Below, in pieces: positions 1-12,253 of a DNA stretch of 39,585 bases (positions within the stretch are counted from its first letter, which is position 1; each line of letters starts with the position of its first letter). Made by a program: the position numbers and the translations under genes. The DNA is from an uncultured Oscillospiraceae bacterium (lineage in GTDB: Bacteria; Bacillota; Clostridia; Oscillospirales; Oscillospiraceae). Where the stretch lies: contig CAJOIU010000016.1 of the NCBI GenBank assembly GCA_905234855.1, positions 1-39,585 on the forward strand, read 5' to 3'. The notes beneath the pieces are model-generated. The model was not told where the DNA came from. It saw only the letters and a list, made by a program, of their open reading frames with translations, and did no database searches.

Positions 1-1
1 C

Positions 2-106
2 TTTGAGTCGAACGGCATGCTGCTTTCCGCCTGCGAAAACGACGAGGGCGATCCCCATCTCGTCATCCTCGAGGACAGCCTCTCCGCCGGCTGGACGCTT
101 TGCTGA
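2..106 (+). CDS. metG: C-terminal end of probable methionyl-tRNA synthetase (partial, enters from left edge)
   Basis: Only the last 34 codons are in the window; the frame is open from base 2 to the TGA at 104-106. The peptide begins FESNGMLLSA and ends in a hydrophobic stretch and Cys. In the OB-fold tRNA-binding domain at the C-terminus of many bacterial MetRS proteins (and free Trbp111/CsaA-type proteins), the last strands read GxESxGMLLAA followed by a short acidic loop and a V-x-L strand. This fragment fits that pattern. The assignment rests on a short motif recalled from the family, so another protein ending in this domain (PheT-like or CsaA) is possible. A strong intrinsic terminator follows 28 bases after the stop. 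Confidence 0.55.
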   Translation, partial: FESNGMLLSACENDEGDPHLVILEDSLSAGWTLC

Positions 107-133
107 TCCCGGCCCATTCATAAATCCTCCAAA

Positions 134-174
134 CCTCCCATATCCTTACCACAAAAGGACATGGGAGGTTTTTT
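134..174 (+). terminator. Intrinsic terminator after metG-like gene; its 3' arm contains the yabP ribosome-binding site
   Basis: Arms at 134-147 and 155-168 form a 14-bp stem with one A-C mismatch, followed by six T (169-174). The 3' arm ends in GGGAGG (163-168), which is the only plausible Shine-Dalgarno for the ATG at 178. Read-through RNA would therefore bury the yabP ribosome-binding site in the hairpin. Confidence 0.85.
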
Positions 175-177
175 GCT

Positions 178-462
178 ATGGCATCGGACGAAAAGACCCG
201 GGGGGTACAAGCGCCCCACAGCCTTACGCTTTCCGAGCGGCAGAGGCTCACCGTCACCGGCGTGGAGGAGGTCGTGAGCTTCGACGAGGATACGGTCGCC
301 GTGCGGACGGTGAAGGGACTGCTCCTCGTCCGCGGCAGCGGGCTGAAGGTGGATAAGCTGGAGAAAAACGCCGGGGAGCTTTCCCTTTCCGGCCTCGTGA
401 CCGATCTCGGCTATGAGGAGGCGCGCACCGCCTCCGGCTTCTGGTCGAGGCTCTTTCACTGA
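178..462 (+). CDS. yabP: YabP-family sporulation protein
   Basis: A 94-residue protein of YabP length. The core LTLSERQRLTVTGVEEVVSF followed by a V-x-x-x-T-x-x-G-x-L-x-V-x-G segment and a short Leu/Gly tail is typical of the YabP/YqfC family. These proteins form small beta-rich assemblies; in Bacillus subtilis YabP is made in the mother cell under sigma-E and is linked to spore-coat/cortex formation. The gene overlaps the next one by TGATG, so yabP and yabQ are translationally coupled, and divIC follows, reproducing the conserved yabP-yabQ-divIC order. Its ribosome-binding site lies inside the preceding terminator stem. Confidence 0.9.
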   Translation: MASDEKTRGVQAPHSLTLSERQRLTVTGVEEVVSFDEDTVAVRTVKGLLLVRGSGLKVDKLEKNAGELSLSGLVTDLGYEEARTASGFWSRLFH

Positions 463-1151
463 TGGAGCTGCCGGTGCCGGTACAGCTCCGGGAGGCCGGA
501 TGGTTCCTCCTGCTGGGCGGCGGCTTGGGGCTTGCCTATGACCTGCTGGGGGCGCTGCGGGATCGGTGGAAGCTGCCCGCGCTCCTTGCCGACGCCGTTT
601 TCAGTCTGGCCGCCCTGCTGGCGCTGTTTGCCGGGGGACTGGCCTCCATCGAGGGACGGCCGCGGATTTATATGCTCTTCTGCGCCGCGCTGGGCTGGGC
701 GTTGTGGGGCGGCGGGGTCTCGCCGGTCACGCGGCCGCTGCTCGGCGCCGCGCTGGGGGCTGTGAAGCGCCTTCTCCTGCTTCCCCTGCGTCCGGCGGCA
801 GGTTTTTGCCGCAAACTCTGCAAAAAGGTCTTTTCAAATGTGAAAAAATGGTTTACAATAATCGGAAGAGACTACCGACCGAGGAAAGGAGCGCGCAGCG
901 ATGAAGCTACGAAGAGCGGGATGGATCACAGGACTCGTCATCGCGGGACTGATCCTTTACGCGTGCGTCACCCTGACGAATATGCGATCCAAGGTCAATC
1001 AGGCGGCCAAGACCCAAGCGGAGCTGCAGACCCGGGTGGAGCAGATCCAAGAGGAAAACGCCGCCCTGCAGCACGCCATCGACAACAAGGACGACCCGGA
1101 CACCATCGGCGACATCGCCAGAGAAAAGCTCGGTCTCGTCATGCCGGATGA
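462..1151 (+). CDS. yabQ: YabQ-family sporulation membrane protein; 3' end doubtful
   Basis: Starts in a TGATG overlap with yabP. Residues 1-130 look like YabQ: several hydrophobic helices (about residues 12-30, 40-62, 70-95), then a basic cytoplasmic segment ending KKVFSNVKKWFTI near residue 133, a usual YabQ ending. YabQ is needed for spore cortex formation in B. subtilis. From about residue 147 the frame runs inside divIC for 251 bases, and the residues become Arg/Gly/His/Pro-rich, the look of an out-of-frame read. Either the natural stop has been lost or there is an indel near 830-900, so the true protein probably ends before 901. Identity is good; the stop coordinate is not. Confidence 0.75.
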   Translation: MELPVPVQLREAGWFLLLGGGLGLAYDLLGALRDRWKLPALLADAVFSLAALLALFAGGLASIEGRPRIYMLFCAALGWALWGGGVSPVTRPLLGAALGAVKRLLLLPLRPAAGFCRKLCKKVFSNVKKWFTIIGRDYRPRKGARSDEATKSGMDHRTRHRGTDPLRVRHPDEYAIQGQSGGQDPSGAADPGGADPRGKRRPAARHRQQGRPGHHRRHRQRKARSRHAG

Positions 1152-1179
1152 GCGTATCTTTTACGATGCGGGCGAATAA
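901..1179 (+). CDS. divIC: FtsB/DivIC-family septum-formation protein
   Basis: A 92-residue single-pass protein: short basic N-terminus, a transmembrane helix at about residues 8-26, then a coiled coil (about 30-65, with NQAAKTQAELQTRVEQIQEE and regular Leu/Val/Ile heptads), ending in a DxIGDIAREKLGLVMPDE motif typical of DivIC/FtsB. It would sit in the divisome with FtsL and DivIB/FtsQ at the septum. The GAGGAAAGGAG run at about 879-889 precedes the ATG. Third gene of the yabP-yabQ-divIC unit, closed by the terminator at 1192. Confident of the family; the DivIC versus FtsB name follows gene context. Confidence 0.9.
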   Translation: MKLRRAGWITGLVIAGLILYACVTLTNMRSKVNQAAKTQAELQTRVEQIQEENAALQHAIDNKDDPDTIGDIAREKLGLVMPDERIFYDAGE

Positions 1180-1191
1180 GCCAAAAATAAC

Positions 1192-1238
1192 GTGCCAATA
1201 TTGTGCTAAATGCCGATATTGGCACTTTTTTGTTTTTT
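1192..1238 (+). terminator. Intrinsic terminator after divIC
   Basis: GTGCCAATAT (1192-1201) pairs perfectly with ATATTGGCAC (1216-1225), loop 14 nt, followed by a T-rich tail (TTTTTTGTTTTTT). Confidence 0.9.
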
Positions 1239-1288
1239 CGCCTTGTGCATTATGCGGAGAAATTTACAATGTTTTTCCCGGTTTGGTG

Positions 1289-1317
1289 TTGACTTTGGGG
1301 CGGCGGGACAGTATACT
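1289..1317 (+). promoter_or_regulatory. Housekeeping promoter of the marR-catabolic operon
   Basis: TTGACT (1289-1294), 17-bp spacer, TATACT (1312-1317). Predicted start near 1324. It is the only good promoter upstream of the marR gene. No equally good one is visible in the 62 bases between marR and the catabolic genes, so co-transcription is likely. Confidence 0.8.
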
Positions 1318-1333
1318 GTACTTAGTCGGCTAA
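1308..1333 (+). promoter_or_regulatory. Two adjacent palindromes over the promoter: probable MarR operator
   Basis: ACAGTATACTGT (1308-1319) is a perfect 12-mer palindrome that contains the -10 box. TTAGTCGGCTAA (1322-1333) has the TTAG-N4-CTAA layout seen in SlyA/MarR-family operators and covers the expected transcription start. Binding at either would block initiation. That MarR binds here is inferred from position. Confidence 0.6.
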
Positions 1334-1355
1334 ATCTAATCGGAGGATAAGTCTC

Positions 1356-1787
1356 GTGGAAGACGAGAAACTGCTGAGCCTTTTTACGGATATGGCTCGG
1401 AATCATACTTCTTATGTGGAGCGCCGCCTGCAGCCGCTGGGGATCCATGCCGGGCAGGGCGCGATCCTGACCGCCTTGGGGGAGCACGGGCCGTGCACCC
1501 AGAAGGAGCTGGCGGAATACCGGCGCGTATCCGCCGCCACCATCAGCGTCATGCTCCGCCGTATGGAAAAGGGCGGGCTGATCGTCCGCACCGCCTCCAA
1601 TGACGGCAAGGGCAACCGCATTGATCTGACGGACGCAGGTTCCCGGATGTACCGGGAACTGGCGCGGGATCGCATCGGCGAGTCCGAGCGCATGTTCGCA
1701 GGCCTCACCGCCGCGGAGCTTTCCGCCGCGGAAAAGATATTTCAGACGATCTCCCGCAATATGGAGGAGACCAACGCCCCGAAATAA
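1356..1787 (+). CDS. MarR-family transcriptional regulator
   Basis: A 143-residue winged-helix protein starting with GTG, 9 bases after GGAGG (1342-1346). Residues 35-110 hold the MarR core: L-x-x-x-G-P-C-T-Q-K-E-L-A as the helix before the recognition helix, SAATISVMLRRMEKGGLIVR as recognition helix and turn, and a wing around NDGKGNRIDLTDAG. N- and C-terminal helices would form the dimer interface and ligand pocket. It lies 62 bases upstream of the ring-cleavage operon, on the same strand, with palindromes over its own promoter. An autorepressor released by an aromatic or ring-cleavage intermediate is the natural inference; MarR proteins often sense phenolics. The ligand is unknown. Confidence 0.88.
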   Translation: MEDEKLLSLFTDMARNHTSYVERRLQPLGIHAGQGAILTALGEHGPCTQKELAEYRRVSAATISVMLRRMEKGGLIVRTASNDGKGNRIDLTDAGSRMYRELARDRIGESERMFAGLTAAELSAAEKIFQTISRNMEETNAPK

Positions 1788-1849
1788 GCTCCGCCGCGGA
1801 GTTTATATATAACCAAGTCAAATAAAATATTTTTTAGGAGGAACAAACA

Positions 1850-2878
1850 ATGGGAAAACCTATGGCTGATTATGCCCATACTCCCGAGCTTGAGGAGTAC
1901 GCAGAATGGTTTAAGGACTTTGCCGACCTCTATCGTGAAGACGGCATCCTGCAGGTCACTTGGAAGACCAAGGACATGCCCATGCATCACTCCGGCATGG
2001 CGCACCGCGCTGTCGGCCAGCTCGCCCGCCTCATCGGCATGGATATGAAGAACGAGATCATCATCTTCACCATGCTCGGCGACAACTGGATGATTGAGTC
2101 CGATCCCGACGGCTGGGAAACCTATTCCGAGCTGCCCACCCAGCGCTTCCAGCATCAGTATTTCGACGACACCAACCTCTTCAAGAACATGGTGTTCGAT
2201 ATCGACGTTCCCACCATCGGCGCCATCCCCGGCCCCGGCTTCCACTGGGATTCCGCTCTGCTGGCGGACATCACCATCGCCACTGAGGACTGCGTCATGG
2301 AAGTTCCTCACGGTCAGGGCGGCCTCGTCCCCGGCGACGGCATGGGCGGCCTCTGCCAGTTCTACATGGGCGCCAAGCGCGGCAACTACTATCTCTCCAC
2401 CACCCGTCAGATGACCGCGCAGGAGATGCTGGACTTCGGCTTCATCTCCGAGGTCGTTCCCAAGGGCAAAGCGCAGGAGCGCGCTTGGGAGATCGCCCGC
2501 ATGTGGAAGAAGATGTCCTATGAGAACCGCACCATCATGGCGAACATCATGAAGCGCCCCGTCCGCAAGTGGCTCATGGACGACTTCAAGCTCCACACCG
2601 TTTCCGAGCAGTACGGCTCCCTGCTCCGCATCGCCGCCGGCGAGCTGGGCGACGAGAACTCCAGCCAGCAGGACGAGAAGTACATCTCCCGCGTCAACGA
2701 CTGGCGCTATGCCACCACCGACATGCAGAAGCCCCAGACCTCCGAGAGCTGGGTCGATATGCCCAAGAAGGCGGCCGAGTGGTTCAAGAAGGTCGAGGCC
2801 GGCGAGATCGAGAACCCGTTCAAGCACAACGATACTCCGGGTTACTACAAGCCCTATCGCCCCGAGCCCAAGAAATAA
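1850..2878 (+). CDS. Crotonase-superfamily C-C bond hydrolase (6-oxocamphor-hydrolase-like); candidate dihydrophloroglucinol cyclohydrolase
   Basis: A 342-residue crotonase-fold protein with a C-terminal extension (about residues 265-342) longer than ordinary enoyl-CoA hydratases. The middle aligns by eye with 6-oxocamphor hydrolase, which cleaves a cyclic beta-diketone by a retro-Claisen reaction and needs no CoA. Matching points are His52 (GMAH), His132 in PGPGFHWDSALLADI and Asp163 in GLVPGDGMGG, corresponding to the catalytic His45, His122 and Asp154 of that enzyme as I recall them. The two acid residues typical of hydratases are not evident. With the reductase, hydroxyacid dehydrogenase and BKACE lyase downstream, the natural substrate would be dihydrophloroglucinol (a cyclic 1,3-diketone), giving 3-hydroxy-5-oxohexanoate. 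Ribosome-binding site AGGAGG at 1836-1841. A generic enoyl-CoA hydratase is the alternative. Strong C-ending codon bias suggests high expression. Confidence 0.7.
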   Translation: MGKPMADYAHTPELEEYAEWFKDFADLYREDGILQVTWKTKDMPMHHSGMAHRAVGQLARLIGMDMKNEIIIFTMLGDNWMIESDPDGWETYSELPTQRFQHQYFDDTNLFKNMVFDIDVPTIGAIPGPGFHWDSALLADITIATEDCVMEVPHGQGGLVPGDGMGGLCQFYMGAKRGNYYLSTTRQMTAQEMLDFGFISEVVPKGKAQERAWEIARMWKKMSYENRTIMANIMKRPVRKWLMDDFKLHTVSEQYGSLLRIAAGELGDENSSQQDEKYISRVNDWRYATTDMQKPQTSESWVDMPKKAAEWFKKVEAGEIENPFKHNDTPGYYKPYRPEPKK

Positions 2879-2892
2879 GTTTACACATCACC

Positions 2893-2918
2893 CCAGAGGA
2901 GGCTGCAGTCTCCTCTGG
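2893..2918 (+). other. Intercistronic hairpin
   Basis: CCAGAGGAG (2893-2901) pairs perfectly with CTCCTCTGG (2910-2918), 8-nt loop. No T-run follows directly, so it is more likely an mRNA-stability or processing element than a terminator. Confidence 0.6.
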
Positions 2919-2958
2919 AAGGCGTTATAAAAATCTTTTTTAAGGAGACTGATTTATC

Positions 2959-3840
2959 ATGCCCAAGGTATATTCCGGTGATCTCACCAAAATGTTCGAC
3001 ATCAGCGGCAAGAAGGCCATGATCTTCGGCGGCGCCGGCGGCTTCGGCAAGGCGATCGCGGAAGGCTATGCGGCCAACGGCTGCTCCGTTTGCATCTCTT
3101 CCCGCAGCGAGGCCAAGCTGCAGGAGGCCGTGAAGGATATCGAGAAGGTCGCCGCTCCCGGCGTCAAGGTCATGTACATCGCCGGCGACGCTGCCGACGA
3201 GGAGTTCGTCAAGAAGGCCGTTGAGGTCGTCACCGGCCCCGACGGTATCGGCGGCTGCGACATCCTCGTGAACGCGCAGGGCATCAATAAGAAGATGTGG
3301 TCTTGGGAGATCGACACCGACTTCTTCAAGAAGATGCTCGACACCAACATCACCTCCCTGATGCTGACCTGCAAGCACTTCGGCAACTGGATGAAGTCCA
3401 ACAACATCGAAGGCGCCGAGAAGATCGAGGAGTCCGCTTTCGAGCACGGCAAGGCCAACCCCAATCAGGGCTACGGCAAGATCATCAACTTCGGCTCCGT
3501 CCGCGGCATCCGCGCTGTCGCCAACGGCGGCAACGGCAACGTCCCCTACAACACCACCAAGGGTGCTGTCGAGATGCTCACCAAGGCTTACGCCGCTGAC
3601 CTGCGTCCCAACATTCAGGTCAACGCCATCGGCCCCACCATCACCTACACCCCGATGATGGTCGGCCTGCTGCCCCCCGATGAGAAGGTCCGCAACGGCA
3701 TCGCCGGCGCCCTGCCCGCGCAGCGCATCGGCTATGAGATCGACGTCGTCGGCCCGGCCATCTTCCTTGGCTCCGCCGCTTCCGACATGGTCACCGCTAC
3801 CACCATCTATCCCGACGGCGGCCTCGTCGCTACTTCGTGA
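2959..3840 (+). CDS. SDR-family reductase; candidate phloroglucinol reductase
   Basis: A 293-residue classical short-chain dehydrogenase/reductase. The cofactor loop GGAGGFGKAIA spans residues 24-34, with SSRS at 47-50 after beta-2, compatible with NADPH. The NAxG motif is VNAQG (104-108) and the catalytic tetrad is Asn130, Ser180, Tyr197 and Lys201 (YNTTK). The C-terminus YPDGGLVATS is usual for the fold. Known phloroglucinol reductases of anaerobes are NADPH-dependent SDRs of this size that reduce the aromatic ring as its keto tautomer to dihydrophloroglucinol. Sitting directly after a cyclic-diketone hydrolase makes that role attractive, but the substrate cannot be proven from the motifs. 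Ribosome-binding site AAGGAG at about 2941-2946. A strong hairpin separates it from the upstream gene and another from the downstream gene. Confidence 0.75.
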   Translation: MPKVYSGDLTKMFDISGKKAMIFGGAGGFGKAIAEGYAANGCSVCISSRSEAKLQEAVKDIEKVAAPGVKVMYIAGDAADEEFVKKAVEVVTGPDGIGGCDILVNAQGINKKMWSWEIDTDFFKKMLDTNITSLMLTCKHFGNWMKSNNIEGAEKIEESAFEHGKANPNQGYGKIINFGSVRGIRAVANGGNGNVPYNTTKGAVEMLTKAYAADLRPNIQVNAIGPTITYTPMMVGLLPPDEKVRNGIAGALPAQRIGYEIDVVGPAIFLGSAASDMVTATTIYPDGGLVATS

Positions 3841-3862
3841 TCCCGGTCATTCCGCAATCCTT

Positions 3863-3889
3863 CCGTCCCCCGCGCTCCGCGGGGGACGG
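3863..3889 (+). other. Intercistronic hairpin
   Basis: CCGTCCCCCGCG (3863-3874) pairs perfectly with CGCGGGGGACGG (3878-3889) across a CTC loop: a very stable 12-bp GC stem. The following bases are not T-rich, so partial attenuation or protection of the upstream mRNA is more likely than full termination. Confidence 0.65.
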
Positions 3890-3915
3890 ACATTCGGTTT
3901 ATTAGGAGTAAAAAA

Positions 3916-4875
3916 ATGAAAGTCGAAGACATCAAAACCATAGCCATGTACGGCGCCGGCACCATCGGCGGCGGCTTCGCGGCGTACTTCTCTCTGAAGG
4001 GTCTGAACGTGAACGTGTTCGTGCGTTCCGAGGGCTCCATCGAGCGCTCCAAGCCCAAGGTACAGGAAGCCATCGACACCTATGTGAAGTACGGCATCAT
4101 CGAAAACGGCGACGACATTTGGTCGCGCATCAAGTTCACGACCGACCCCGCCGAGGCCTTCACGGGCGTGTATTTCGTTCAGGAGAACGGCCCCGAGAAC
4201 ACCGAGGAAAAGCACAAGATGGTCGCCGTCATGGAGCAGTATCTGCCCGAGGACGCCATCATCGCCTCCTCCAGCTCCGGCACCCCCGTCACGCTGATCG
4301 CCGCCGAGGCCAAGCACCCCGAGCGCATCATCGTGGGTCACCCCTTCAACCCGGCCTACCTGCTGCCCCTCATCGAGATCTGCGGCGGCGAGAAGACCTC
4401 CCCCGAGACCGTCGCGCTTGCGCGTGAGTTCTATGCCAAGTACGACAAGGCTCCCGTCGTTCTGAACATCGAGAAGAACGGCTTCATCGCGAACCGTCTC
4501 ATGCACGCCCTGTGGCGCGAGGAGATCGCTCTCGTGTGCGAAGGCGTCTGCTCCATGGAAGACGCGGACAATGCTTGGACCTTCGGCCCCGGCCTGCGTC
4601 TGGCCGCCTTCGGCCCCGCCATGAACTACGAGCTGGGCGGCGGCGATCTCGGCCTCAAGGGCTGCGCCATCAAGTTCGGCGCCATGACCGACGCCGTGTT
4701 CGCCGATATTTCCGACATGAAGAAGGTCCCCGCCGAATGGGCCGACCTCTCCGGCGATCAGATCATTCCCGAGATGGCGCACTTCCCGCCGGTCATCGGC
4801 AACACCAAGCCCCAGATCGCGTCCTTCCGCGACAATATCATCATCAGCCTGCTGAAGATGCACGAGAGACTGTAA
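3916..4875 (+). CDS. 3-hydroxyacyl-CoA-dehydrogenase-fold oxidoreductase; candidate 3-hydroxy-5-oxohexanoate dehydrogenase
   Basis: A 319-residue protein of the 3-hydroxyacyl-CoA dehydrogenase superfamily. It has an N-terminal Rossmann domain with YGAGTIGGG (12-20), Ser119-Ser121 in the SSSSG strand, and the catalytic pair His142 (VGHPFNP) and Glu154 (LIEI). The all-alpha dimerisation domain follows from NGFIANRL (188-195), with the conserved Asn193. Single-NAD-domain members of this length include enzymes acting on free hydroxy acids, such as L-carnitine dehydrogenase and lambda-crystallin/gulonate dehydrogenase, as well as CoA esters. In this operon, oxidation of 3-hydroxy-5-oxohexanoate to triacetate (3,5-dioxohexanoate) fits. 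A weak AGGAG precedes the ATG, and the next gene starts 16 bases after the stop. Confidence 0.75.
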   Translation: MKVEDIKTIAMYGAGTIGGGFAAYFSLKGLNVNVFVRSEGSIERSKPKVQEAIDTYVKYGIIENGDDIWSRIKFTTDPAEAFTGVYFVQENGPENTEEKHKMVAVMEQYLPEDAIIASSSSGTPVTLIAAEAKHPERIIVGHPFNPAYLLPLIEICGGEKTSPETVALAREFYAKYDKAPVVLNIEKNGFIANRLMHALWREEIALVCEGVCSMEDADNAWTFGPGLRLAAFGPAMNYELGGGDLGLKGCAIKFGAMTDAVFADISDMKKVPAEWADLSGDQIIPEMAHFPPVIGNTKPQIASFRDNIIISLLKMHERL

Positions 4876-4891
4876 TAAGGAGAATTTTTCT

Positions 4892-5272
4892 ATGGCAAAG
4901 AGAATCATTACCGTTGCCCTGACCGGCGCCGTGACGCCCGCGGGCTACAACGTTCCCGAGACCCCCGAGCAGATCGCCGAGCAGGTCTTTGAGTGCTGGA
5001 AGCTCGGCGCCTCCGTCGCTCACCTGCATATGCGCGACGACGCCGGCATGGGCGTTATGGATCCCGTCAAGTTCTATGAGACCATCAAGCTCATCCGCGC
5101 CAACAAGGAGTGCGACATCATCGTGAACTGCACCTCCTCCGGCGACAACCGCGTTTCCGACGACTCCCCCTACGGCAACGCCATGCGTATGCTGCACCAC
5201 AAGAACGTCCCCGGCATCGAGATGGGCACCTTCGACGCCTCCTCCTTCAACTGGCGGCGGCGTTTTCCATAA
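4892..5272 (+). pseudogene. Beta-keto acid cleavage enzyme (BKACE/DUF849), N-terminal part before a frameshift; candidate triacetate acetoacetate-lyase
   Basis: The first 121 codons of a BKACE-type Zn-dependent lyase, which splits a beta-keto acid with acetyl-CoA into acetoacetate and a new acyl-CoA. Visible family marks are TGAVTP at 11-16, the zinc-binding HLHMRD (His44, His46) and VNCTSSGDNR around 79-87. After Trp121 (5252-5254) the frame changes: this frame reads RRRFP-stop, while the sequence GGGVFHNSPAM needed to continue the family lies in another frame. A missing GG (or one extra base) at about 5252-5255, inside a GGC-repeat tract, explains it. It may be a real inactivating indel or an assembly/sequencing error. 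Ribosome-binding site AAGGAG at 4877-4882. Confidence 0.8.
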
Positions 5273-5894
5273 CAGCCCCGCCATGCTGATGCAGCTCGGT
5301 AAGCTGTATCAGGAGAAGGGCATCAAGCCCGAGTTCGAGATCTTCGACCTCGGCGCGCTGCGCGCCATCGGCGCTTACTGGAAGCAGGGCTACGTCGTTG
5401 CGCCGCTGCACTTCCAGTTCTGCATGGGCGTCATGGGCGGCATGGACGCCACCCCCGGCCAGCTCCAGCTCATGATCGACGAGATGCATCGCCTCCAGTT
5501 CGAGGGCGCGCTGCCCAAGGAGATCACTTGGTCGGCCTTCGGCATCGGCAAGGGTCACCTGCCCACCATGTTCGCGGCCATCGCCAACGGCGGCGGCGTC
5601 CGCGTCGGCATGGAGGACAACGTGGTCTTCGGCAAGGACAAGGAAGGCAAGAAGATCATGGCCACCAACATGATGCTCGTCGAGCGCGCCGCGAATGCCA
5701 TCCGCGCTTACGGCGACGAGCCCGCCACACCGGCTGAGGCTCGTCAGATGCTCTCCCTGCCCGCGCTGGACATCGAGGCCGTCAACGCCAAGCTCGCCGC
5801 TGTCAAGGTCGAGGACCTCGAGGCCGCGAAGCAGGCCGTCAAGGACGAGTTCGGCGGCCCGTACTTTGCCGCGAAGGGCATGGGCGGCAAGTAA
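5255..5894 (+). pseudogene. Beta-keto acid cleavage enzyme, C-terminal part after the frameshift
   Basis: Continues the BKACE fold in the shifted frame; an ATG at 5283 would allow a separate 203-residue ORF, but no ribosome-binding site precedes it. It contains the family's EFEIFDLG strand, HFQFCMGVMGGM, WSAFGIGKGHLP, and the active-site loop GVRVGMEDNVVF, where Arg, Glu and Asp correspond to the catalytic Arg, the third zinc ligand Glu and the neighbouring Asp of the characterised lyase Kce. A helical tail of about 55 residues follows. With the upstream part the protein would be about 334 residues, somewhat longer than the 275-310 usual for the family. In context the full enzyme would convert triacetate plus acetyl-CoA to acetoacetate and acetoacetyl-CoA. 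A strong terminator follows. Confidence 0.8.
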
Positions 5895-5922
5895 TTGATT
5901 TCATAACCGCATAAAACACCGG

Positions 5923-5957
5923 GAGGGAAGCCGACGATCGGCTTCCCTCTTTCTCTT
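5923..5957 (+). terminator. Terminator of the catabolic operon
   Basis: GAGGGAAGCCGA (5923-5934) pairs perfectly with TCGGCTTCCCTC (5938-5949), CGA loop, followed by the T-rich TTTCTCTT. Confidence 0.9.
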
Positions 5958-6229
5958 AACCTATCACAGATGGATTTGACGGATTGAAACGCAGGAACAA
6001 ATATGGTATACTGAATTATCAGATGTGTTTAACTGCTTGTGTGTTTTGACTGCTTAGACGTGCATATCAAGGATTTATGGGATAGAAATGGAACACTTAT
6101 AAAAACCACACAATCGCAAAAACCGTGTAGCTGACAATTTGAACAGTTGTTCTGTGTATCATTCAAAGCGCATTTCTTCTCCGTCAATACATCAAATGTT
6201 GGTTTTCCCCCAAAAACCTTAAACAGTTG
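5958..6229. other. AT-rich geneless stretch
   Basis: About 270 bases with clearly lower GC than the neighbours. No ORF with a ribosome-binding site or recognisable family was found; a 74-codon minus-strand open frame at 6029-6253 has a Cys/Phe-rich composition, no ribosome-binding site and runs into the psuG terminator. It contains an apparently orphan promoter (5984-6012). It may be the remnant of a lost gene or encode a small RNA. Confidence 0.5.
5984..6012 (+). promoter_or_regulatory. Orphan promoter with extended -10
   Basis: TTGAAA (5984-5989), 17-bp spacer, TATACT (6007-6012), preceded by TGG for an extended -10 element. It points rightward into a stretch with no plausible coding sequence on that strand before the convergent psuG. 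Confidence 0.6.
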
Positions 6230-6265
6230 AAAAAATCGGCGTGACCAAATCATGGTCGCGCCGAT
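6230..6265 (-). terminator. Intrinsic terminator after psuG
   Basis: Arms 6235-6247 and 6253-6265 form a 13-bp stem with one mismatch (G-T type) and a 5-nt loop. On the minus strand it is followed by a T-run (A-run at 6230-6235 on the plus strand). Confidence 0.85.
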
Positions 6266-6278
6266 GCGTTATTCCTCG

Positions 6279-7196
6279 TTATCGCAGCGCGGACAGCGCC
6301 GCGGCGGTTTTGGCCGCCAGCGCGGCATTATTGAGAACGAGCTTTATATTCGCCTCGAGGCTGTCTCCGCCGGTGAGCTCCTTCACCCGCGCGAGCAGGA
6401 AGGGCGTCACCTTCTTGCCCTTCACTCCCTGCGCCGCGCTCTCGGCCACGGCTTGGTCGATGGCGGCGTTTATGACGTCCGCCGGCATGGAGTATTCCTC
6501 CGGGATGGGATTGCCGCACAGCAGGCCGCCCTTGTAGCCGAGACCCCGCTCCGCCGCGAACACCGCCGCCAGCTCCTCCGGCGTATCGGCGCGGAAATCG
6601 ACGCCGAACCCGCTCCGGCGCGTATAGAAGGCGGGCAGCTCATCCGTGCCGTAGCCGCAGACGGGAACCCCCTTCGTTTCGAGGTATTCGAGCGTCAACC
6701 CCAGATCGAGGATGGATTTCGCCCCCGCGCAGATCACCAGCACCGGCGTCTGCGCCAGCTCTTCGAGGTCGGCGGAGATATCCATGGTCGTCTCCGCGCC
6801 GCGGTGCACACCGCCGATGCCGCCGGTGGCGAATACCTCGATCCCCGCCAACGACGCCACGATCATGGTAGAGGCGACGGTGGTGGCGCCGTCCATGCCC
6901 CGGGCGCAAAGCATGGGCAGATCCCGGCGGCTGGCCTTGGGGATCTCCTGCCCCCTCCGGGCGAGGTATTCGATCTCATCGTGCGAAAGTCCCGCCTTCA
7001 GACGGCCGCCGATCACGGCGATCGTCGCAGGCACCGCGCCGTTGTCGCGGATGGTCTGTTCTACGGCAAACGCCGTCTCCGCGTTCTGCGGCCACGGCAT
7101 CCCATGGGAAATGATGGTGCTCTCCAGCGCCACGACGGGCTTTCCCTCCGCCAGCGCCGCAGCCACCTCGGGCTGTATGTCCAAATAACGATTCAT
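6279..7196 (-). CDS. psuG: Pseudouridine-5'-phosphate glycosidase
   Basis: A 305-residue protein that matches PsuG along its length: VVALESTIISHGMPWPQN (22-39), IAVIGGRLKAGLS, a TTVASTMIVASLAGIEVFATGGIGGVHRG core, SADLEELAQTPVLVICAGAKSILD, and NPIPEEYSMP near the C-terminus. PsuG is a Mn-dependent cytoplasmic enzyme that reversibly cleaves the C-C glycosidic bond of pseudouridine 5'-phosphate to uracil and ribose 5-phosphate, recycling pseudouridine from RNA turnover. The usual partner kinase PsuK is not adjacent. A CGGAGG lies 11 bases before the ATG, slightly far. It follows the DUF1294 gene by 30 bases on the same strand and may share its transcript. Confidence 0.95.
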   Translation of the reverse strand: MNRYLDIQPEVAAALAEGKPVVALESTIISHGMPWPQNAETAFAVEQTIRDNGAVPATIAVIGGRLKAGLSHDEIEYLARRGQEIPKASRRDLPMLCARGMDGATTVASTMIVASLAGIEVFATGGIGGVHRGAETTMDISADLEELAQTPVLVICAGAKSILDLGLTLEYLETKGVPVCGYGTDELPAFYTRRSGFGVDFRADTPEELAAVFAAERGLGYKGGLLCGNPIPEEYSMPADVINAAIDQAVAESAAQGVKGKKVTPFLLARVKELTGGDSLEANIKLVLNNAALAAKTAAALSALR

Positions 7197-7226
7197 GCTT
7201 GACGCGCCTCCGTAATCTCGATAAAA

Positions 7227-7508
7227 TCAATGTGATACGACGTAGAACAGCAGCAGGAAAAACGCCGCCTGCATCGCAAGGATCACCGGGATGCCCACGG
7301 TGAATTTCGACTTATGGGTCTTATGCCGGAAGAGGTACATCCCCGCGAGGCAGCCGATGCCGCCGCCGATCACCGCGGTGACGAGCAGTGTCGATTCCGA
7401 AATGCGCCATGCGCCGCGCTTGGCTCGGCGCTTATCGACGCCCATCAGAACAAAGCCCGCAAGATTGATCAGCTCCAGATAGACCAATAGAATATAATAG
7501 CTTTCCAT
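7227..7508 (-). CDS. DUF1294 small membrane protein
   Basis: A 93-residue protein beginning MESYYILLVY. It has an N-terminal hydrophobic helix (about 5-23), the DUF1294 motif MGVDKRRAKRGAWRISE (22-38), a second hydrophobic segment with GGGIGCLAGMYLFRHKTHK (48-66), and a third C-terminal helix (about 72-92). This arrangement is the signature of DUF1294, whose function is unknown. The frame stays open upstream as an antisense shadow of alaX, but the start at 7508 is set by family length and by the promoter: the -10 box ends only 7 bases before the ATG and there is no ribosome-binding site, implying a leaderless transcript. Confidence 0.9.
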   Translation of the reverse strand: MESYYILLVYLELINLAGFVLMGVDKRRAKRGAWRISESTLLVTAVIGGGIGCLAGMYLFRHKTHKSKFTVGIPVILAMQAAFFLLLFYVVSH

Positions 7509-7515
7509 ACGCCAA

Positions 7516-7544
7516 AGTATACACTTTTTCCAAAGCGAGGTCAA
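7516..7544 (-). promoter_or_regulatory. Promoter of the DUF1294-psuG unit (leaderless)
   Basis: On the minus strand: TTGACC (7544-7539), 17-bp spacer, TATACT (7521-7516). Predicted transcription start is at about 7509, one base before the ATG at 7508. Confidence 0.75.
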
Positions 7545-7547
7545 CCG

Positions 7548-8690
7548 ATGGATACCGTAAAGCTCTACTATGAAAACGCCTACACCCGCGCCTTCGAGGC
7601 GGCAGTCCTCGCCTGCGAGGAGGCAAAAAACGGCTGGCACGTCATCCTCGACCGCACGGCCTTTTTCCCGGAGGGCGGCGGTCAGACCGCCGATACCGGC
7701 ATGCTGGGCGGCGTTCGGGTGCTGGACGCCCACGAGAAGGGCGGCGTCGTTTATCATCTCACCGACGCGCCCCTGCCCGTTGGACAGACGGTCACAGGAG
7801 AGATCGACTGGGCGGATCGGTTCCGCAAGATGCAGAACCACACCGGGGAGCATATCGTCTCCGGCGTCATCCATTCGCGGTTCGGCTACGACAACGTGGG
7901 CTTTCATCTCGGTGCGGACGGCTGCACCATCGACCTGAGCGGCGAACTGACCCGGGAGCAGCTCGATGCGATCGAGGATGCGGCGAACACCGCGGTATGG
8001 GCAAACCTCCCCGTCACGGCGCGCTTTCCCTCGCCGGAGGAGCTGTCCGTCATGGACTACCGCAGCAAGCTCGATCTCACGGAAAACGTCCGCATCGTCA
8101 CGGTGGAGGGGATCGACCGCTGCGCCTGCTGCGCGCCGCATGTTTCCCGCACGGGCGAGATCGGCGTCATCAAGCTGCTGGACGCCATGCGCCACCGGGG
8201 CGGCGTGCGCATCTGGATCAAATGCGGCTTCGACGCGCTGCGGGACTATCGCGCCCGCTATGCCGCCTCCGCGGCTGTCTCCGCGCTGCTGAACGTGCCG
8301 CAGGCGGAGATCGTGAGCGGAACGGAGCACCTCATCGCCCAGCGGGACGCGCTGAAATTTGACCTGATCGCCCATCAGCGCCGGGCGCTGGAGGCGCAGG
8401 CCGCCGCTCTTGAGCCCACCGAGGGGAATCTCCTCCTGTTCGCGGACGCGGACGACGCTGGCATGCGCATCCTCGCGAACGCGGGCATGGAAAAATGCGG
8501 CGGCGTGTGCGCCGTGTTCTCCGGGGAGGACGGCGCCTATCGCTTCGTGATGGCGAGCCGCACCCGGGATATGCGCGCCTTCGCCAAGGAGATCCGTGAG
8601 CCGCTGTCCGCCCGCGGCGGCGGACAGGAACGCATGATCTCCGGCCGCTGCGCCGCGGCAAGGAAATTGCTTGAAGCCTATTTCCGATGA
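7548..8690 (+). CDS. AlaX-type alanyl-tRNA editing protein (long form with DHHA1-like C-terminus)
   Basis: A 380-residue stand-alone relative of the AlaRS editing domain. Residues 35-50 (DRTAFFPEGGGQTADT) and the zinc motif HTGEH (His98, His102) with CACCAPH (Cys194, His198) are the AlaX/AlaRS-ThrRS editing signature. The C-terminal third (about 240-380), with GNLLLFADADDAGMRILAN and SARGGGQERMISGR, is a DHHA1-like domain. Such proteins hydrolyse Ser- or Gly-mischarged tRNA-Ala in trans. It diverges from the DUF1294 gene, with overlapping control regions; GAGG at 7537-7540 precedes the ATG. A TATAAT at 7493-7498 could serve as its -10, but no good -35 is seen. Confidence 0.9.
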   Translation: MDTVKLYYENAYTRAFEAAVLACEEAKNGWHVILDRTAFFPEGGGQTADTGMLGGVRVLDAHEKGGVVYHLTDAPLPVGQTVTGEIDWADRFRKMQNHTGEHIVSGVIHSRFGYDNVGFHLGADGCTIDLSGELTREQLDAIEDAANTAVWANLPVTARFPSPEELSVMDYRSKLDLTENVRIVTVEGIDRCACCAPHVSRTGEIGVIKLLDAMRHRGGVRIWIKCGFDALRDYRARYAASAAVSALLNVPQAEIVSGTEHLIAQRDALKFDLIAHQRRALEAQAAALEPTEGNLLLFADADDAGMRILANAGMEKCGGVCAVFSGEDGAYRFVMASRTRDMRAFAKEIREPLSARGGGQERMISGRCAAARKLLEAYFR

Positions 8691-8697
8691 TCAAGAA

Positions 8698-8732
8698 AAA
8701 TGGATCGCCGGGAGCTGAACGCTCCCGGCGAT
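8698..8732. terminator. Shared terminator between alaX and the convergent SDR gene
   Basis: ATCGCCGGGAGC (8704-8715) pairs perfectly with GCTCCCGGCGAT (8721-8732), 5-nt loop. A good T-run (CCATTTTTCTT) follows on the minus strand; the plus-strand tail is weaker. Confidence 0.85.
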
Positions 8733-8750
8733 GCCATATTTGATGCCGTA

Positions 8751-9530
8751 TCAGTAGCCGACGATGGACGCGCCGCCGTCGATGACCATGACCTGCCCGG
8801 TGGTATTGCCGGAAAGCTCCGAGCAAAGGAACACTGCGGCGGAGGCGATCTCATAGGGCGTATTCATCACGCGGCCGGTGGGGACAAAATTATGGACGGG
8901 AGGCGGATTGCCGCCGGGGCCCTCCGGCATGGCAGATACGCCGGTGCCGAAGGACGCCGTGCCGCCCGGGGCGATGGCATTGACCCGGACGCCCCGATGT
9001 CCCCATTCGGAGGCCGCCTGCATCGTAATGGCCAGCACAGCGCCCTTGCTGGCGCTGTAGGAAGCGGAGCACATGGGAGGCACCATGCCGCGCATGCCCG
9101 CCATGGAGGCGATGTTCAGGATCGCGCCGCCACGATCCTTCATGCTCTGCTTCACGACCTGCTGCATCATGAAGAAGGTGCCCTTGGCGTTCGTCGCCTG
9201 CACCCGATCCCATTCCGCCGGGGTCAGCTCCAGCGCGTCGCCGCCGGTCATAACGCCCGCGGCTTGGATCAGAACGTCGATCTCCCCCAGCTCGGCGCGG
9301 ATGCGCTCCACCACCGCGGGGATTTCCTCCGCCGAGGAGATATCCAGCGCATAGGGATGCACCTGCCCCTTGTCCTTCAGCATTTCCGCCGCCTTGCGGA
9401 TCTTTTCCTCGCCGCGGCCGATCATGGCTACCACCGCGCCGGAGGATGCCAGCGTCTCGGCGCACGCAAAGCCGATCCCGCTGCCCGCGCCGGTCACAAC
9501 GGCTACCTTGCCGGTAAAATCAATCTTCAT
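8751..9530 (-). CDS. Short-chain dehydrogenase/reductase of unknown substrate
   Basis: A 259-residue classical SDR: TGAGSGIG at 13-20, GRG at 38-40 after beta-2, QAAG at 89-92, catalytic Asn114, Ser142, Tyr158 and Lys162 (YSASK), RVNAIAPGG near 180, and a DGG C-terminal motif. Proteins of this kind are usually annotated as 3-oxoacyl-ACP reductase (FabG)-like or gluconate 5-dehydrogenase-like. The loop after Pro187 (GTASFGTGVSAMPEGPGGNPPP) is unusually long and Gly/Pro-rich and probably shapes a specific substrate pocket. AAGGAGAAG precedes the ATG. It stands alone between a lipoprotein gene and a terminator, so context gives no substrate. Confidence 0.85.
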   Translation of the reverse strand: MKIDFTGKVAVVTGAGSGIGFACAETLASSGAVVAMIGRGEEKIRKAAEMLKDKGQVHPYALDISSAEEIPAVVERIRAELGEIDVLIQAAGVMTGGDALELTPAEWDRVQATNAKGTFFMMQQVVKQSMKDRGGAILNIASMAGMRGMVPPMCSASYSASKGAVLAITMQAASEWGHRGVRVNAIAPGGTASFGTGVSAMPEGPGGNPPPVHNFVPTGRVMNTPYEIASAAVFLCSELSGNTTGQVMVIDGGASIVGY

Positions 9531-9592
9531 ACGCTTCTCCTTTTCCAGTCAAATATCTTTTCCGGGGATCCCGGATGGATTCGGATAGGAAA

Positions 9593-10909
9593 TCAGTCGG
9601 CCGTCGCCTCTTCAATGGCGGCGGTGTTGTTGCCCTCAGCGGCAAGCTCCGTGATCGTCTGCCGCAGGGCGGCCATATCGCCGCTGTCACAGATATAATG
9701 GATGCCCACGACCTGCTGGATCGCGTCGCCGGTGAAATAGAAGATGGGGCCGGAGAGATCAGAGAGGGTGACCGAGATCGTGATCTTGTCCCCCGTGGGC
9801 TCGGCGACCGTTTCGCTGCTCACTTGGATGGCGGCCACCTGCCGGATGAACCGCATGGCCAGATCCCCGTCCAGCGTGAGATAGCCGCTCTCCTCGCCGA
9901 TGGTGTATTCCACGAAAATGCCCGCCACGGTGAGATCCGTCCGCTCGCCGTTTGCGACCTGCACGGTGGTCTGGATATCGTCCCGCAGGCCGCCGATGCT
10001 GCCGCCCTCGAATTTTCCGTTGTTGTTGGCGGCCATGATCTGCACGTCCCACAGCGCGTCGATTCCGGAAAGCCAGTAATACACCGTGCCGAAGTCGGGC
10101 GCGGCCGTCACCGCAAGACAGCGCTGGGCAAAGGAGAACGTATAATACGTCCCGTCCGCCATGGTGAAGATATAATCCCGCACGTCGGTGAGGTCAATGT
10201 TCTGGTCGGGGAAGTTTTCCACCACCGTCACCGTCGCCCCGGACAGCGCCGCAAACGCCTGCCGCACAACGGCGGGATCGTCGCTCGTCACCGTTGCGCC
10301 GCTGCCCAGCCGATAGCCGACGGAAACCGGCGTATTCTGCTCGAACCCGTCCGCAAAGGCGCGCACGCCGTCGTCAAAATAGAGATCGAACAGATCGAAG
10401 GAGCTGCTGTAGGCCGGGAACTCGATCTCCCACAGCGCGTCGCCGCCCTCCACGGCATAATTGCCGGTATAGGTGCTGAGCACCCGGGAGCCGTCCGCCA
10501 AGCGGCCAAAGGTGAAATAGTATTCGTCGCCGTCCGCCATGGTGAGGACATATTCCCCGCCGGAGGCCGCCTGCTCGGGAGACGGCGCCGTGACCGTCAT
10601 GCTCCGCAGCGCGTCGCAGGCAGCGATGATGGAGGCGCGGTCAAAGACATACGCCCGGCAGCCGCGGGTACCGTCCGACGCCTCGCTCTGGTAGCTCAGC
10701 GCCACGGGGGTATCGGTATAGTAGCTGCCGCCGAAGTCCTCCCAGCCGAGATAGGTCAGCAGCGGCGCGGCCTGAAACACATCCTCCGCCGACTCCTCCG
10801 CGCCGGGACGCACCAGCTCCGTCCCCGGCATAAGACTGACGTAATCGCCGCAGGCGCACAAAGCCCCCAGCAGCGCGAGCGCCAGTATCAGCGTGCATAG
10901 CTTTTTCAT
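9593..10909 (-). CDS. Predicted lipoprotein with an internally duplicated domain
   Basis: A 438-residue protein of unknown function. The N-terminus MKKLCTLILALALLGALCAC is a lipoprotein signal, with Cys20 the likely lipidated residue (lipobox LCAC). The rest is acidic and beta-rich, suited to the outer face of the membrane. Two copies of one domain are visible. Residues 91-164 (AALRSMTVT-type strand, YVLTMADGDEYYFTFG, ...GGDALWEIEF) and 212-291 (FAALSGATVTV, YIFTMADGTYYTFSF, ...SGIDALWDVQI) match in order and spacing. A looser third unit may follow at about 355-420. I do not recognise the family. It has its own strong promoter upstream at 10951-10979. Confidence 0.8.
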   Translation of the reverse strand: MKKLCTLILALALLGALCACGDYVSLMPGTELVRPGAEESAEDVFQAAPLLTYLGWEDFGGSYYTDTPVALSYQSEASDGTRGCRAYVFDRASIIAACDALRSMTVTAPSPEQAASGGEYVLTMADGDEYYFTFGRLADGSRVLSTYTGNYAVEGGDALWEIEFPAYSSSFDLFDLYFDDGVRAFADGFEQNTPVSVGYRLGSGATVTSDDPAVVRQAFAALSGATVTVVENFPDQNIDLTDVRDYIFTMADGTYYTFSFAQRCLAVTAAPDFGTVYYWLSGIDALWDVQIMAANNNGKFEGGSIGGLRDDIQTTVQVANGERTDLTVAGIFVEYTIGEESGYLTLDGDLAMRFIRQVAAIQVSSETVAEPTGDKITISVTLSDLSGPIFYFTGDAIQQVVGIHYICDSGDMAALRQTITELAAEGNNTAAIEEATAD

Positions 10910-10950
10910 ATCGTTCTCCCTTCCTATGAGGGGTTTTGTCGTTCCGTATC

Positions 10951-10979
10951 AGTATAGCACAGCGCGGCGCGTTTGTAAA
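10951..10979 (-). promoter_or_regulatory. Promoter of the lipoprotein gene
   Basis: On the minus strand: TTTACA (10979-10974), 17-bp spacer, TATACT (10956-10951), preceded by TGC for an extended -10. Confidence 0.75.
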
Positions 10980-10989
10980 ACCGCGGGCG

Positions 10990-11023
10990 AAAAAACAAAA
11001 ACCGTCCGGCAGAATGCCGGACG
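10990..11023 (-). terminator. Intrinsic terminator after rpsT
   Basis: CGTCCGGCA (11003-11011) and TGCCGGACG (11015-11023) form a 9-bp stem with a GAA loop. The minus-strand tail is GTTTTTGTTTTTT. Confidence 0.9.
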
Positions 11024-11036
11024 ATCTCGGTTTTTC

Positions 11037-11303
11037 TCACTCAGCCATGGCGTTGATCTTCTTGGCCATCGCGGATTTCTTGTGCGCCGCGTTATTCTTA
11101 TGAATAAGGCCCTTTGACGCCGCCTTGTCGACGGACTTCACGGCAGCTTTATAGGTCTCAGCAGCCTTCGCGCCGTCGCCGGCCTCAACCGCCGCGTCGA
11201 ATTTCTTGATCTCCGTCTTCAGAGCGGATTTCGCAGCCCGGTTGCGGGCGTTCGCCGCTTTCTGCAGCTGATCTCTCTTTGCCGAGGACTTGATATTCGG
11301 CAT
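11037..11303 (-). CDS. rpsT: 30S ribosomal protein S20
   Basis: 88 residues starting MPNIKSSAKR, the standard S20 opening, followed by the basic, Ala/Lys-rich helices with NxxxKSALKT, KAASKGLIHKNNAAHKKSAMAKKIN and a short tail. The frame is open farther upstream, but the start at 11303 is fixed by the family and by GGGAGGTG about 10 bases before it. S20 binds 16S rRNA early in small-subunit assembly and is usually monocistronic. Here it has its own TATAAT promoter and terminator. Convention and position next to gpr agree with many Clostridia. Confidence 0.97.
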   Translation of the reverse strand: MPNIKSSAKRDQLQKAANARNRAAKSALKTEIKKFDAAVEAGDGAKAAETYKAAVKSVDKAASKGLIHKNNAAHKKSAMAKKINAMAE

Positions 11304-11352
11304 TTCCTTGCACCTCCCTAATAAAGTCTGAACATGATGTCCGCAGATGCGA

Positions 11353-11381
11353 ATTATATCAAGCTTTTCCGAAAAATGCAA
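11353..11381 (-). promoter_or_regulatory. rpsT promoter
   Basis: On the minus strand: TTGCAT (11381-11376), 17-bp spacer, TATAAT (11358-11353). The 5' leader before rpsT is about 45-50 nt. Confidence 0.75.
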
Positions 11382-11437
11382 GTATTTTTTTTAATTCTCT
11401 GCAAAATGTACAAAATAAACTGCGAGGAGATGATCGT

Positions 11438-12253
11438 ATGCTCGGTTTTCGCACCGATCTGGCCGCGGAGGAACTTCCGCAGGGCGGCGGCGAGCTTCCC
11501 GGCGTCACCAGCCGGAGCTATGACAGGGATGGCTTTCATGTGACCGACGTGGAGGTTCTCAACACACAGGGCAGCAATGCGTTATGTAAACCAATCGGAA
11601 GGTATATCACTATGGATATGGAGACGTTCTTCCGCCGGGAGGAGGATTCCTTTGCCCATGCGGCGGCGCTGCTGGCAGACTGTATCCGCCGGCTGCTGCC
11701 TCTGCGGGAGCGTGACAGTATCCTTGTGGCCGGGCTGGGAAACCCCGATATCACCCCGGACGCCATTGGCCCGGAGGCAGCCTCTCTTACGCTTGCCACC
11801 CGCCATTTGAAGGTACAGATGCCGGAGGAATTTTCCGCGTTCCGTCCCGTCAGCGTCTGTCAGACCGGCGTTTTGGGGACGACCGGCATGGAGAGCTCTG
11901 AGATCATTCGCGCTGTCAGCGGCGCGGTAGCGCCGGACGCTATCGTGGTGATCGACGCTCTGGCCGCCCGATCCAGCGACAAGCTCTGCCGCACCGTGCA
12001 GCTGACCGACAGCGGCATCGTCCCCGGCTCCGGGGTGGGCAATGACCGCGCGGAATTATCACGTCGGGTGCTGGGCTTACCTGTGACGGCCATCGGCGTT
12101 CCCACCGTTGTGGACGCCGGGGACGGCCTCATCGTCACCCCCCGCGAAATCGACAAATATGTGCGGGACGCCGGGAAGCTCATTGCCTACGCTCTCAACC
12201 TCGCGCTGCACCCGGCTTTGACGCTTTCCGATGTGGATATGTTTGTCGGATGA
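11438..12253 (+). CDS. gpr: GPR germination protease (spore-specific endopeptidase)
   Basis: A 271-residue protein of the GPR family. It starts MLGFRTDLAAEE (the RTDLA propeptide motif), then TDVEVLN, a VAGLGNPDITPDAIGPEA core (96-113), TGVLGTTGMESSEII, VVIDALAARS, and GSGVGNDRAELSRRVLGLPVTAIGVPTVVDA. GPR is synthesised as a zymogen in the forespore under sigma-G and degrades small acid-soluble spore proteins during germination. B. subtilis GPR is longer (about 370); this shorter form is common in Clostridia. GAGGAG precedes the ATG. It shows that the organism is, or recently was, an endospore former. Confidence 0.95.
   Translation: MLGFRTDLAAEELPQGGGELPGVTSRSYDRDGFHVTDVEVLNTQGSNALCKPIGRYITMDMETFFRREEDSFAHAAALLADCIRRLLPLRERDSILVAGLGNPDITPDAIGPEAASLTLATRHLKVQMPEEFSAFRPVSVCQTGVLGTTGMESSEIIRAVSGAVAPDAIVVIDALAARSSDKLCRTVQLTDSGIVPGSGVGNDRAELSRRVLGLPVTAIGVPTVVDAGDGLIVTPREIDKYVRDAGKLIAYALNLALHPALTLSDVDMFVG

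Follow-up and report, generated by a model that had tools for sequence, protein, structure and literature searches.

The window analyzed here is the whole 39,585-nucleotide stretch of contig 16 (CAJOIU010000016.1) from the assembly of an uncultured Oscillospiraceae bacterium (GCA_905234855.1), a genome of 1.79 Mb that is 82.6% complete. Open reading frames and Pfam matches place five co-directional genes at positions 1356–5894, encoding a MarR-family regulator, a crotonase-fold protein (CRO), a short-chain dehydrogenase/reductase (SDR), a 3-hydroxyacid dehydrogenase (HCD), and a β-keto acid cleavage enzyme (BKACE). An earlier interpretation made from the DNA letters (the sequence-only reading) had described the locus as a MarR-controlled set of four enzymes for phloroglucinol degradation, and the five-gene set itself is borne out, with all members in the same direction and with strong Pfam matches. 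The features of the operon are:

1289–1317, + strand: σ70-like promoter by sequence reading (TTGACT at 1289–1294, 17-bp spacer, TATACT at 1312–1317)
1322–1333, + strand: inverted repeat TTAG-N4-CTAA, invariant across the window and relatives L040 and L042
1356–1787, + strand: MarR-family regulator, 143 amino acids, GTG start (Pfam MarR_2, 3.3e-13)
1850–2878, + strand: CRO, crotonase-fold β-diketone hydrolase-like C–C hydrolase (predicted), 342 amino acids (Pfam ECH_1, 4e-12)
2959–3840, + strand: SDR reductase, 293 amino acids, proposed ring ketoreductase (Pfam adh_short_C2, 3e-36)
3916–4875, + strand: HCD, 3HCDH-family 3-hydroxyacid dehydrogenase (Pfam 3HCDH_N, 2e-43)
4892–5272, + strand: N-terminal part of BKACE, with Val14 at the substrate-selecting position (Pfam BKACE, 5.6e-28)
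about 5250–5894, + strand: C-terminal part of BKACE, in another frame (Pfam BKACE, 1.6e-47)

The best solved relatives of CRO are the Anabaena β-diketone hydrolase (E 6.5e-31) and 6-oxocamphor hydrolase (E 3e-25). In a family profile, CRO residues H132, H154, D163, and E253 align with H122, H145, D154, and E244 of 6-oxocamphor hydrolase, which we take to have catalytic roles, and the equivalents of this quartet are invariant in 42 of 42 aligned members. PDB entry 1szo is, by its title, the H122A mutant of 6-oxocamphor hydrolase. The AlphaFold (AF2) model of CRO (mean predicted local distance difference test score 84.8) agrees with the sequence matches, as its twelve best PDB fold matches in Foldseek are all chains of the same two enzymes, with template modeling scores of 0.82–0.87 when normalized by target. 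CRO thus has the fold and the His/His/Asp/Glu set in common with these hydrolases; it differs from them in showing 25–29% identity in the fold matches, in being about 80 residues longer, and in being found with HCD and BKACE. Trp40 of 6-oxocamphor hydrolase, presumably a substrate residue, aligns with CRO His47, and the substrate is therefore likely different. We infer from sequence and model that CRO is a β-diketone hydrolase-like C–C hydrolase, predicted to carry out retro-Claisen hydrolysis of a 1,3-diketone.

The SDR contains an NADP-type arginine (in SSRS) and the YxxxK motif. In NCBIfam, it best matches the profiles of glucose and gluconate dehydrogenases, and phloroglucinol reductase gives similar profile matches. 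The best solved relative of HCD is the non-CoA enzyme 5-formyl-3-hydroxy-2-methylpyridine 4-carboxylate 5-dehydrogenase. Alignment with 3-hydroxybutyryl-CoA dehydrogenase (PDB 6aa8, with 4om8 also aligned; positions counted by eye) showed that the Ser, His, and Asn are kept, while Ile and Gly occupy the places of the CoA-contact residues Lys56 and Asn221. The same loss of CoA-contact residues is reported for CsTfD of the Clostridium scatologenes phloroglucinol pathway (PMC10470551). These observations bear on the reading of the operon as an ordinary CoA-ester β-oxidation set, which is suggested by the Pfam names ECH_1 and 3HCDH and by weak NCBIfam matches. The catalytic set of CRO is that of non-CoA diketone hydrolases, HCD lacks the CoA contacts, and the operon genes include neither an acyl-CoA dehydrogenase nor a ligase; no NCBIfam match listed for MarR or HCD reached its cut-off, nor did any of the best 25 listed for CRO and SDR. 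A β-oxidation set was rejected on residues and fold, and we regard it as scarcely credible. The sequence-only reading had named, as evidence that would count against it, a closest relationship of all four enzymes to CoA-ester enzymes; what was found is a CRO nearest to diketone hydrolases and an HCD nearest to a non-CoA dehydrogenase.

BKACE belongs to PF05853, as does Kce, and differs from it at a key pocket position, with Glu14 in Kce and Val14 in the window. This position was located with an intact relative aligned to PDB 2y7d and to triacetate lyases, and the window ORF has the same residue. The triacetate lyase of the C. scatologenes pathway has Trp16 there, a residue tied to triacetate in PMC10470551. 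Among 20 distinct CRO-locus BKACEs of at least 250 amino acids, the position is occupied by Val (14), Ile (3), or Met (3), whereas it is Trp in 4/4 triacetate lyases; with a smaller residue in place of Trp, there may be space for a larger substituent. The sequence-only reading had listed one β-keto acid cleavage enzyme in the row. The family domain is present, but it does not form one ORF, as a DNA alignment with four distinct relatives whose copies are intact (L035, L149, L143, and L144; labels of this L0xx/L1xx form denote stretches read from other contigs, and L035 is the same contig as L041) shows 8 nt to be missing at 5254/5255. Either an assembly error or a recent mutation could account for the deletion, which splits the window copy into two frames.

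Families and residues support, by inference, the order of chemistry that had been proposed, namely reduction of a ring carbonyl, retro-Claisen opening, re-oxidation of a 3-hydroxy acid, and cleavage of a β-keto acid with acetyl-CoA. SDR with NADPH, perhaps together with a cupin encoded elsewhere in the genome (contig 5), would reduce one ring carbonyl; CRO would then hydrolyze the 1,3-diketone to a 3-hydroxy-5-oxo acid, HCD would oxidize this to a 3,5-dioxo acid, and BKACE would use acetyl-CoA to yield a 3-oxoacyl-CoA and acetoacetate. A thiolase and a CoA-transferase, encoded in the corresponding operon of Flavonifractor and not in that of the window, would complete the route. Because HCD and BKACE follow CRO, a 3-hydroxy-5-oxo acid would be needed, and the ring would carry oxygen at positions 1, 3, and 5. 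This requirement weighs against an alternative in which CRO acts on some other cyclic 1,3-diketone, produced when the SDR oxidizes an alicyclic alcohol (a cyclitol, a quinate-like compound, or a terpenoid). That alternative draws on the closest characterized relatives of CRO, which act on alicyclic diketones, judging in part by entry titles (6-oxocamphor hydrolase acts on a cyclic 1,3-diketone in camphor catabolism), and on the glucose and gluconate dehydrogenases at the head of the SDR matches.

In C. scatologenes, the pathway PGR-DPGC-TfD-TAL (PMC10470551) follows the same chemistry order and has the SDR, 3HCDH-type dehydrogenase, and BKACE families in common with the window. Its ring opener is described there as a Mn-dependent "cyclase." This enzyme belongs to PF04199, whereas the window has a crotonase fold, and the two families are unrelated. 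The proteins used for comparison came from cyclase-type loci of gut genomes (L117–L121) rather than from C. scatologenes itself. Each of these loci, which come from five CRO genomes, combines the cyclase enzyme with an SDR of the phloroglucinol reductase type; L117, L118, L119, and L121 (not L120) also have a dehydrogenase and a BKACE. The cyclases contain RWPYF (5/5) and the BKACEs TGAW (4/4); the loci were taken as genuine phloroglucinol clusters because these motifs fit the substrate residues Trp20/Tyr22 and Trp16 of the published enzymes (PMC10470551). Identity between window and cyclase-type proteins is 27–28% for SDR, 30–33% for HCD, and 46–47% for BKACE (measured with an intact relative), although the NADP-type Arg is common to the window SDR and the phloroglucinol reductases. 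In the BKACE tree, the four triacetate lyases form a clade (support 100/99) distinct from that of the CRO-locus BKACEs (20 rows, 19 distinct; 92/84), and in the SDR tree the five phloroglucinol reductases form a clade (100/100) apart from 14 CRO-linked SDRs (95/97); long branches are flagged in this analysis. Six CRO-locus SDRs (L044, L053, L068, L069 twice, and L071) fall outside both clades and were left out of the CRO-linked group.

Of the 40 CRO genomes searched, 15 gave a match to the cyclase enzyme at E ≤ 1e-40, with 78–100% identity to the Flavonifractor An10 query, which is itself among the 15. It was not found at this threshold in the other 25, some of them incomplete, which comprise the window's genome (no match in the 82.6% present), three genomes of its genus, and 21 more. 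The idea that the operon encodes the C. scatologenes pathway was rejected on the ring opener, the BKACE residue, the separate clades, and this coexistence; equivalence of the enzymes to those of C. scatologenes, whose four activities the sequence-only reading had assigned here, is not supported, given an unrelated ring-opener family, 27–47% identity elsewhere, and Val for Trp. The phloroglucinol substrate fared less clearly, being possible in the 25 genomes without the cyclase, the window's included, and disfavored by the 15 that hold both. The joint presence of cyclase and CRO in these 15 favors a substrate other than free phloroglucinol. A rival reading, in which free phloroglucinol is degraded and CRO takes the place of dihydrophloroglucinol cyclohydrolase without being homologous to it, would share the four-step chemistry, the cupin–SDR pairs found in both kinds of cluster (see below), and the lack of a cyclase match in those 25 genomes; it sits poorly with the coexistence, with Val, Ile, or Met instead of the triacetate-linked Trp, and with the separate clades of phloroglucinol reductases and triacetate lyases. 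We consider it rather unlikely. As a pathway marker, NCBIfam NF053538 (3,5-dioxohexanoate:acetyl-CoA transferase) was uninformative: at E ≤ 1e-90, none of 391 genomes matched it, nor did any of 14 controls.

The one PF04199 match in the window's own genome (L033, contig 32) is about 26% identical to the cyclase enzymes. At L033 5873–7868, the cyclase-family protein is followed by an HCD paralogue and then a transporter-like gene. This locus was rejected as a real phloroglucinol cluster, since it lacks the RWPYF of the five cyclase-type loci and has no window-like SDR or BKACE in the 14 kb read; it is possibly another C–C hydrolase pathway.

A small cupin adjoins the reductase in 5/5 cyclase-type loci read, and a homologous cupin also adjoins many CRO-linked SDRs, which argues for a phloroglucinol-type ring. 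The word cupin does not appear in the main text of PMC10470551, on C. scatologenes. The cupins beside phloroglucinol reductases are:

L118, 5912–6295: small cupin
L117, 7015–7368: small cupin
L119, 6597–6947: small cupin
L121, 11125–11475: small cupin
L120, 11087–11467: small cupin

Co-occurrence was examined in 60 sampled relatives, 35 of them of the same genus, using CRO, SDR, BKACE, and cupin. CRO was found at ≥70% identity in nine relatives, all same-genus; 13 further relatives matching CRO at E ≤ 0.001 were not counted, as their identity (≤31%) was that expected of generic enoyl-CoA hydratases. SDR (E ≤ 1e-80) was present in 8/9 CRO genomes, the sole exception being the fragmented G022, and BKACE (E ≤ 1e-50) in 9/9, vs. 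0/26 other same-genus genomes for each (Fisher tests, uncorrected for phylogeny: 3.8e-7 for SDR and 1.4e-8 for BKACE). The cupin was present in 9/9 CRO genomes, in 1/26 other same-genus genomes, and in a single genome from a different genus of the family; in the six loci read, it stands alone amid unrelated genes. In six of the nine CRO genomes, SDR and BKACE are on another contig than CRO, and in the four unlinked loci read (L143, L144, L151, and L152) the genes directly after MarR are SDR, HCD, and BKACE. Since SDR and BKACE track CRO on separate contigs also, the link is independent of adjacency. The SDR frame in the genome of L151 holds a stop codon.

In a scan of named genomes with two short peptide patterns, which is incomplete, at least 65 CRO loci were recovered. 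Carriers of CRO include Coprococcus catus and Pseudoflavonifractor phocaeensis An507; Eubacterium ramulus, an example of a species with the cyclase enzyme, did not appear among the hits of this incomplete scan. A conserved operon ordered LysR-MFS-DUF362-HCD-MFS-CoA transferase A-B-thiolase-CRO-CRO-BKACE is present, complete or partial, in relatives of Flavonifractor, Pseudoflavonifractor, and Intestinimonas. In five such operons (L057, L060, L061, L063, and L065), a phosphotriesterase-family gene, presumably with a lactonase role, lies 3′ of BKACE on the same strand. Flavonifractor plautii ATCC 29863 (L096) has the LysR-MFS-DUF362-HCD-MFS-CoAT-CoAT-thiolase-CRO-CRO-BKACE arrangement without this gene, and its second CRO is split in the draft. 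The DUF362 protein (L058 3657–4937 and equivalents) appears in 16/65 CRO loci and is regular in F. plautii-type operons. A linked SDR is lacking from most of these operons, and the DUF362 protein or another SDR is a candidate ring reductase in these genomes. The ATCC 29863 assembly gave fragments or a weak match for the cyclase enzyme and no close match, and the CRO operon is therefore the visible candidate there. CRO proteins 67–78% identical occur in Bacillota, Actinomycetota (Olsenella and Propionibacterium), and a Treponema-binned contig, which suggests horizontal transfer.

We take F. plautii DSM 4000 to be the same strain as ATCC 29863. Catechin A-ring fission has been ascribed to F. plautii (PMC9281540), and F. 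plautii DSM 4000 together with Eggerthella lenta turned catechin and epicatechin into 4-hydroxy-5-(dihydroxyphenyl)valeric acid (PMC11887054); C-ring cleavage is assigned to E. lenta, with later steps shared with F. plautii (PMC13057332). The portions of these three articles consulted name no A-ring genes. Genes for catechin A-ring fission were likewise not named in the titles or abstract beginnings among the open-access matches listed, a scope outside which lies the subscription literature, where they may be in print. The CRO operon of ATCC 29863 is compatible with this activity, as the product logic fits 4-hydroxy-5-arylvaleric acids; it differs from the window in having no window-type SDR, and the link of CRO to A-ring fission is a proposal made here.

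The explanation we favor, tentatively and a little short of an even chance, is a MarR-controlled operon that would open 1,3,5-trioxygenated (phloroglucinol-type) rings by reduction and hydrolysis, with a crotonase-fold hydrolase replacing the cyclase. Coexistence with the cyclase and the smaller BKACE residue point to a ring substituent. A C-substituted phloroglucinol is what we consider the likeliest substrate, with the A ring of diarylpropan-2-ols derived from flavan-3-ols by other gut bacteria as the foremost candidate. For 1-(3,4-dihydroxyphenyl)-3-(2,4,6-trihydroxyphenyl)propan-2-ol, opening, oxidation, BKACE, and thiolase would by our derivation give a 4-hydroxy-5-arylvaleryl-CoA, from which CoA removal would release 4-hydroxy-5-arylvaleric acid and the γ-valerolactone. 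A broader proposal, plausible though somewhat more apt to fail than to hold, is that CRO with SDR–cupin, HCD, BKACE, thiolase, and CoA-transferase forms gut machinery converting the diarylpropan-2-ol A ring to phenyl-γ-valerolactones, spread horizontally among Flavonifractor relatives, uncultured deer and rumen bacteria, and even Actinomycetota.

Several observations weigh against this explanation. Co-occurrence within the genus could come partly from shared descent, and one of the 26 non-CRO same-genus genomes has the cupin. The window operon lacks a thiolase and a CoA-transferase, and its BKACE is broken, with intact copies in relatives. Absence of a cyclase match from 25/40 CRO genomes means that CRO could replace the cyclase on free phloroglucinol there. 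When nine genomes carrying operons of the F. plautii type were searched for the CRO-linked SDR at E ≤ 1e-45, only one (G451, not ATCC 29863) gave a match. PMC10470551 reports a cyclase cluster in F. plautii, in a different genome record. Several uncultured Oscillospiraceae have CoA-transferase–CRO, and many loci have CRO with no recognized partner. In L052, L055, L087, and L088, the order cupin-SDR-acetoacetate decarboxylase-like-aldehyde dehydrogenase-CRO replaces HCD and BKACE, which suggests a different downstream route. With neighborhoods this varied, the CRO family may serve several substrates. The same four loci, with their aldehyde dehydrogenase and acetoacetate decarboxylase-like genes, also favor the alicyclic-alcohol alternative, against which stand cupin–SDR pairs like those of phloroglucinol clusters, whose reductase has profile matches similar to those of the SDR. 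We judge that alternative to be quite improbable. The hosts of these four clusters are Olsenella, Propionibacterium, and two uncultured genomes.

Beyond the operon's coding genes, the promoter (TTGACT-17-TATACT) and the TTAG-N4-CTAA repeat 5′ of marR are kept in both aligned relatives (L040 and L042). The repeat lies near the predicted transcription start and is likely a MarR operator, a putative role assigned from sequence. The nearest named contigs (L040–L042, CRO 96% identical) are red deer assemblies by title. L040 is binned as Bacteroidales, and its CRO and SDR are 96–97% identical to those of the window; the other close relatives are Oscillospiraceae, and the L040 contig is probably misbinned. 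CRO was found at E ≤ 1e-15 in only 1 of 391 genomes of a class-wide sample, the window's own. A plasmid scan returned 29 records with CRO-like proteins, at ≤34.1% identity among the matches listed (best 20 of 29), and seven records for cyclase proteins at 29–32% identity. An Rfam scan of window positions 1–12000 gave no match above gathering scores. Downstream of the operon, an unrelated Indigoidine_A-family gene lies at 6279–7196 on the − strand; from its name, we take it to encode pseudouridine-5′-phosphate glycosidase.

Flavan-3-ols (catechins) are supplied by tea, cocoa, and tannins. Phenyl-γ-valerolactones are described as major dietary flavan-3-ol metabolites, accounting with their downstream metabolites for 42–60% of epicatechin intake (PMC9281540), and their production varies from one person to the next. 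Should CRO be the A-ring opener, this capacity would be readable from genomes and metagenomes. On a more modest reading, the CRO gene set looks like a second, unstudied route for phloroglucinol-type ring opening, and anaerobes would own two unrelated enzymes for this step. The cupin that accompanies ring reductases of both kinds is a further testable part, and surveys counting the cyclase enzyme alone would overlook the crotonase-type route.

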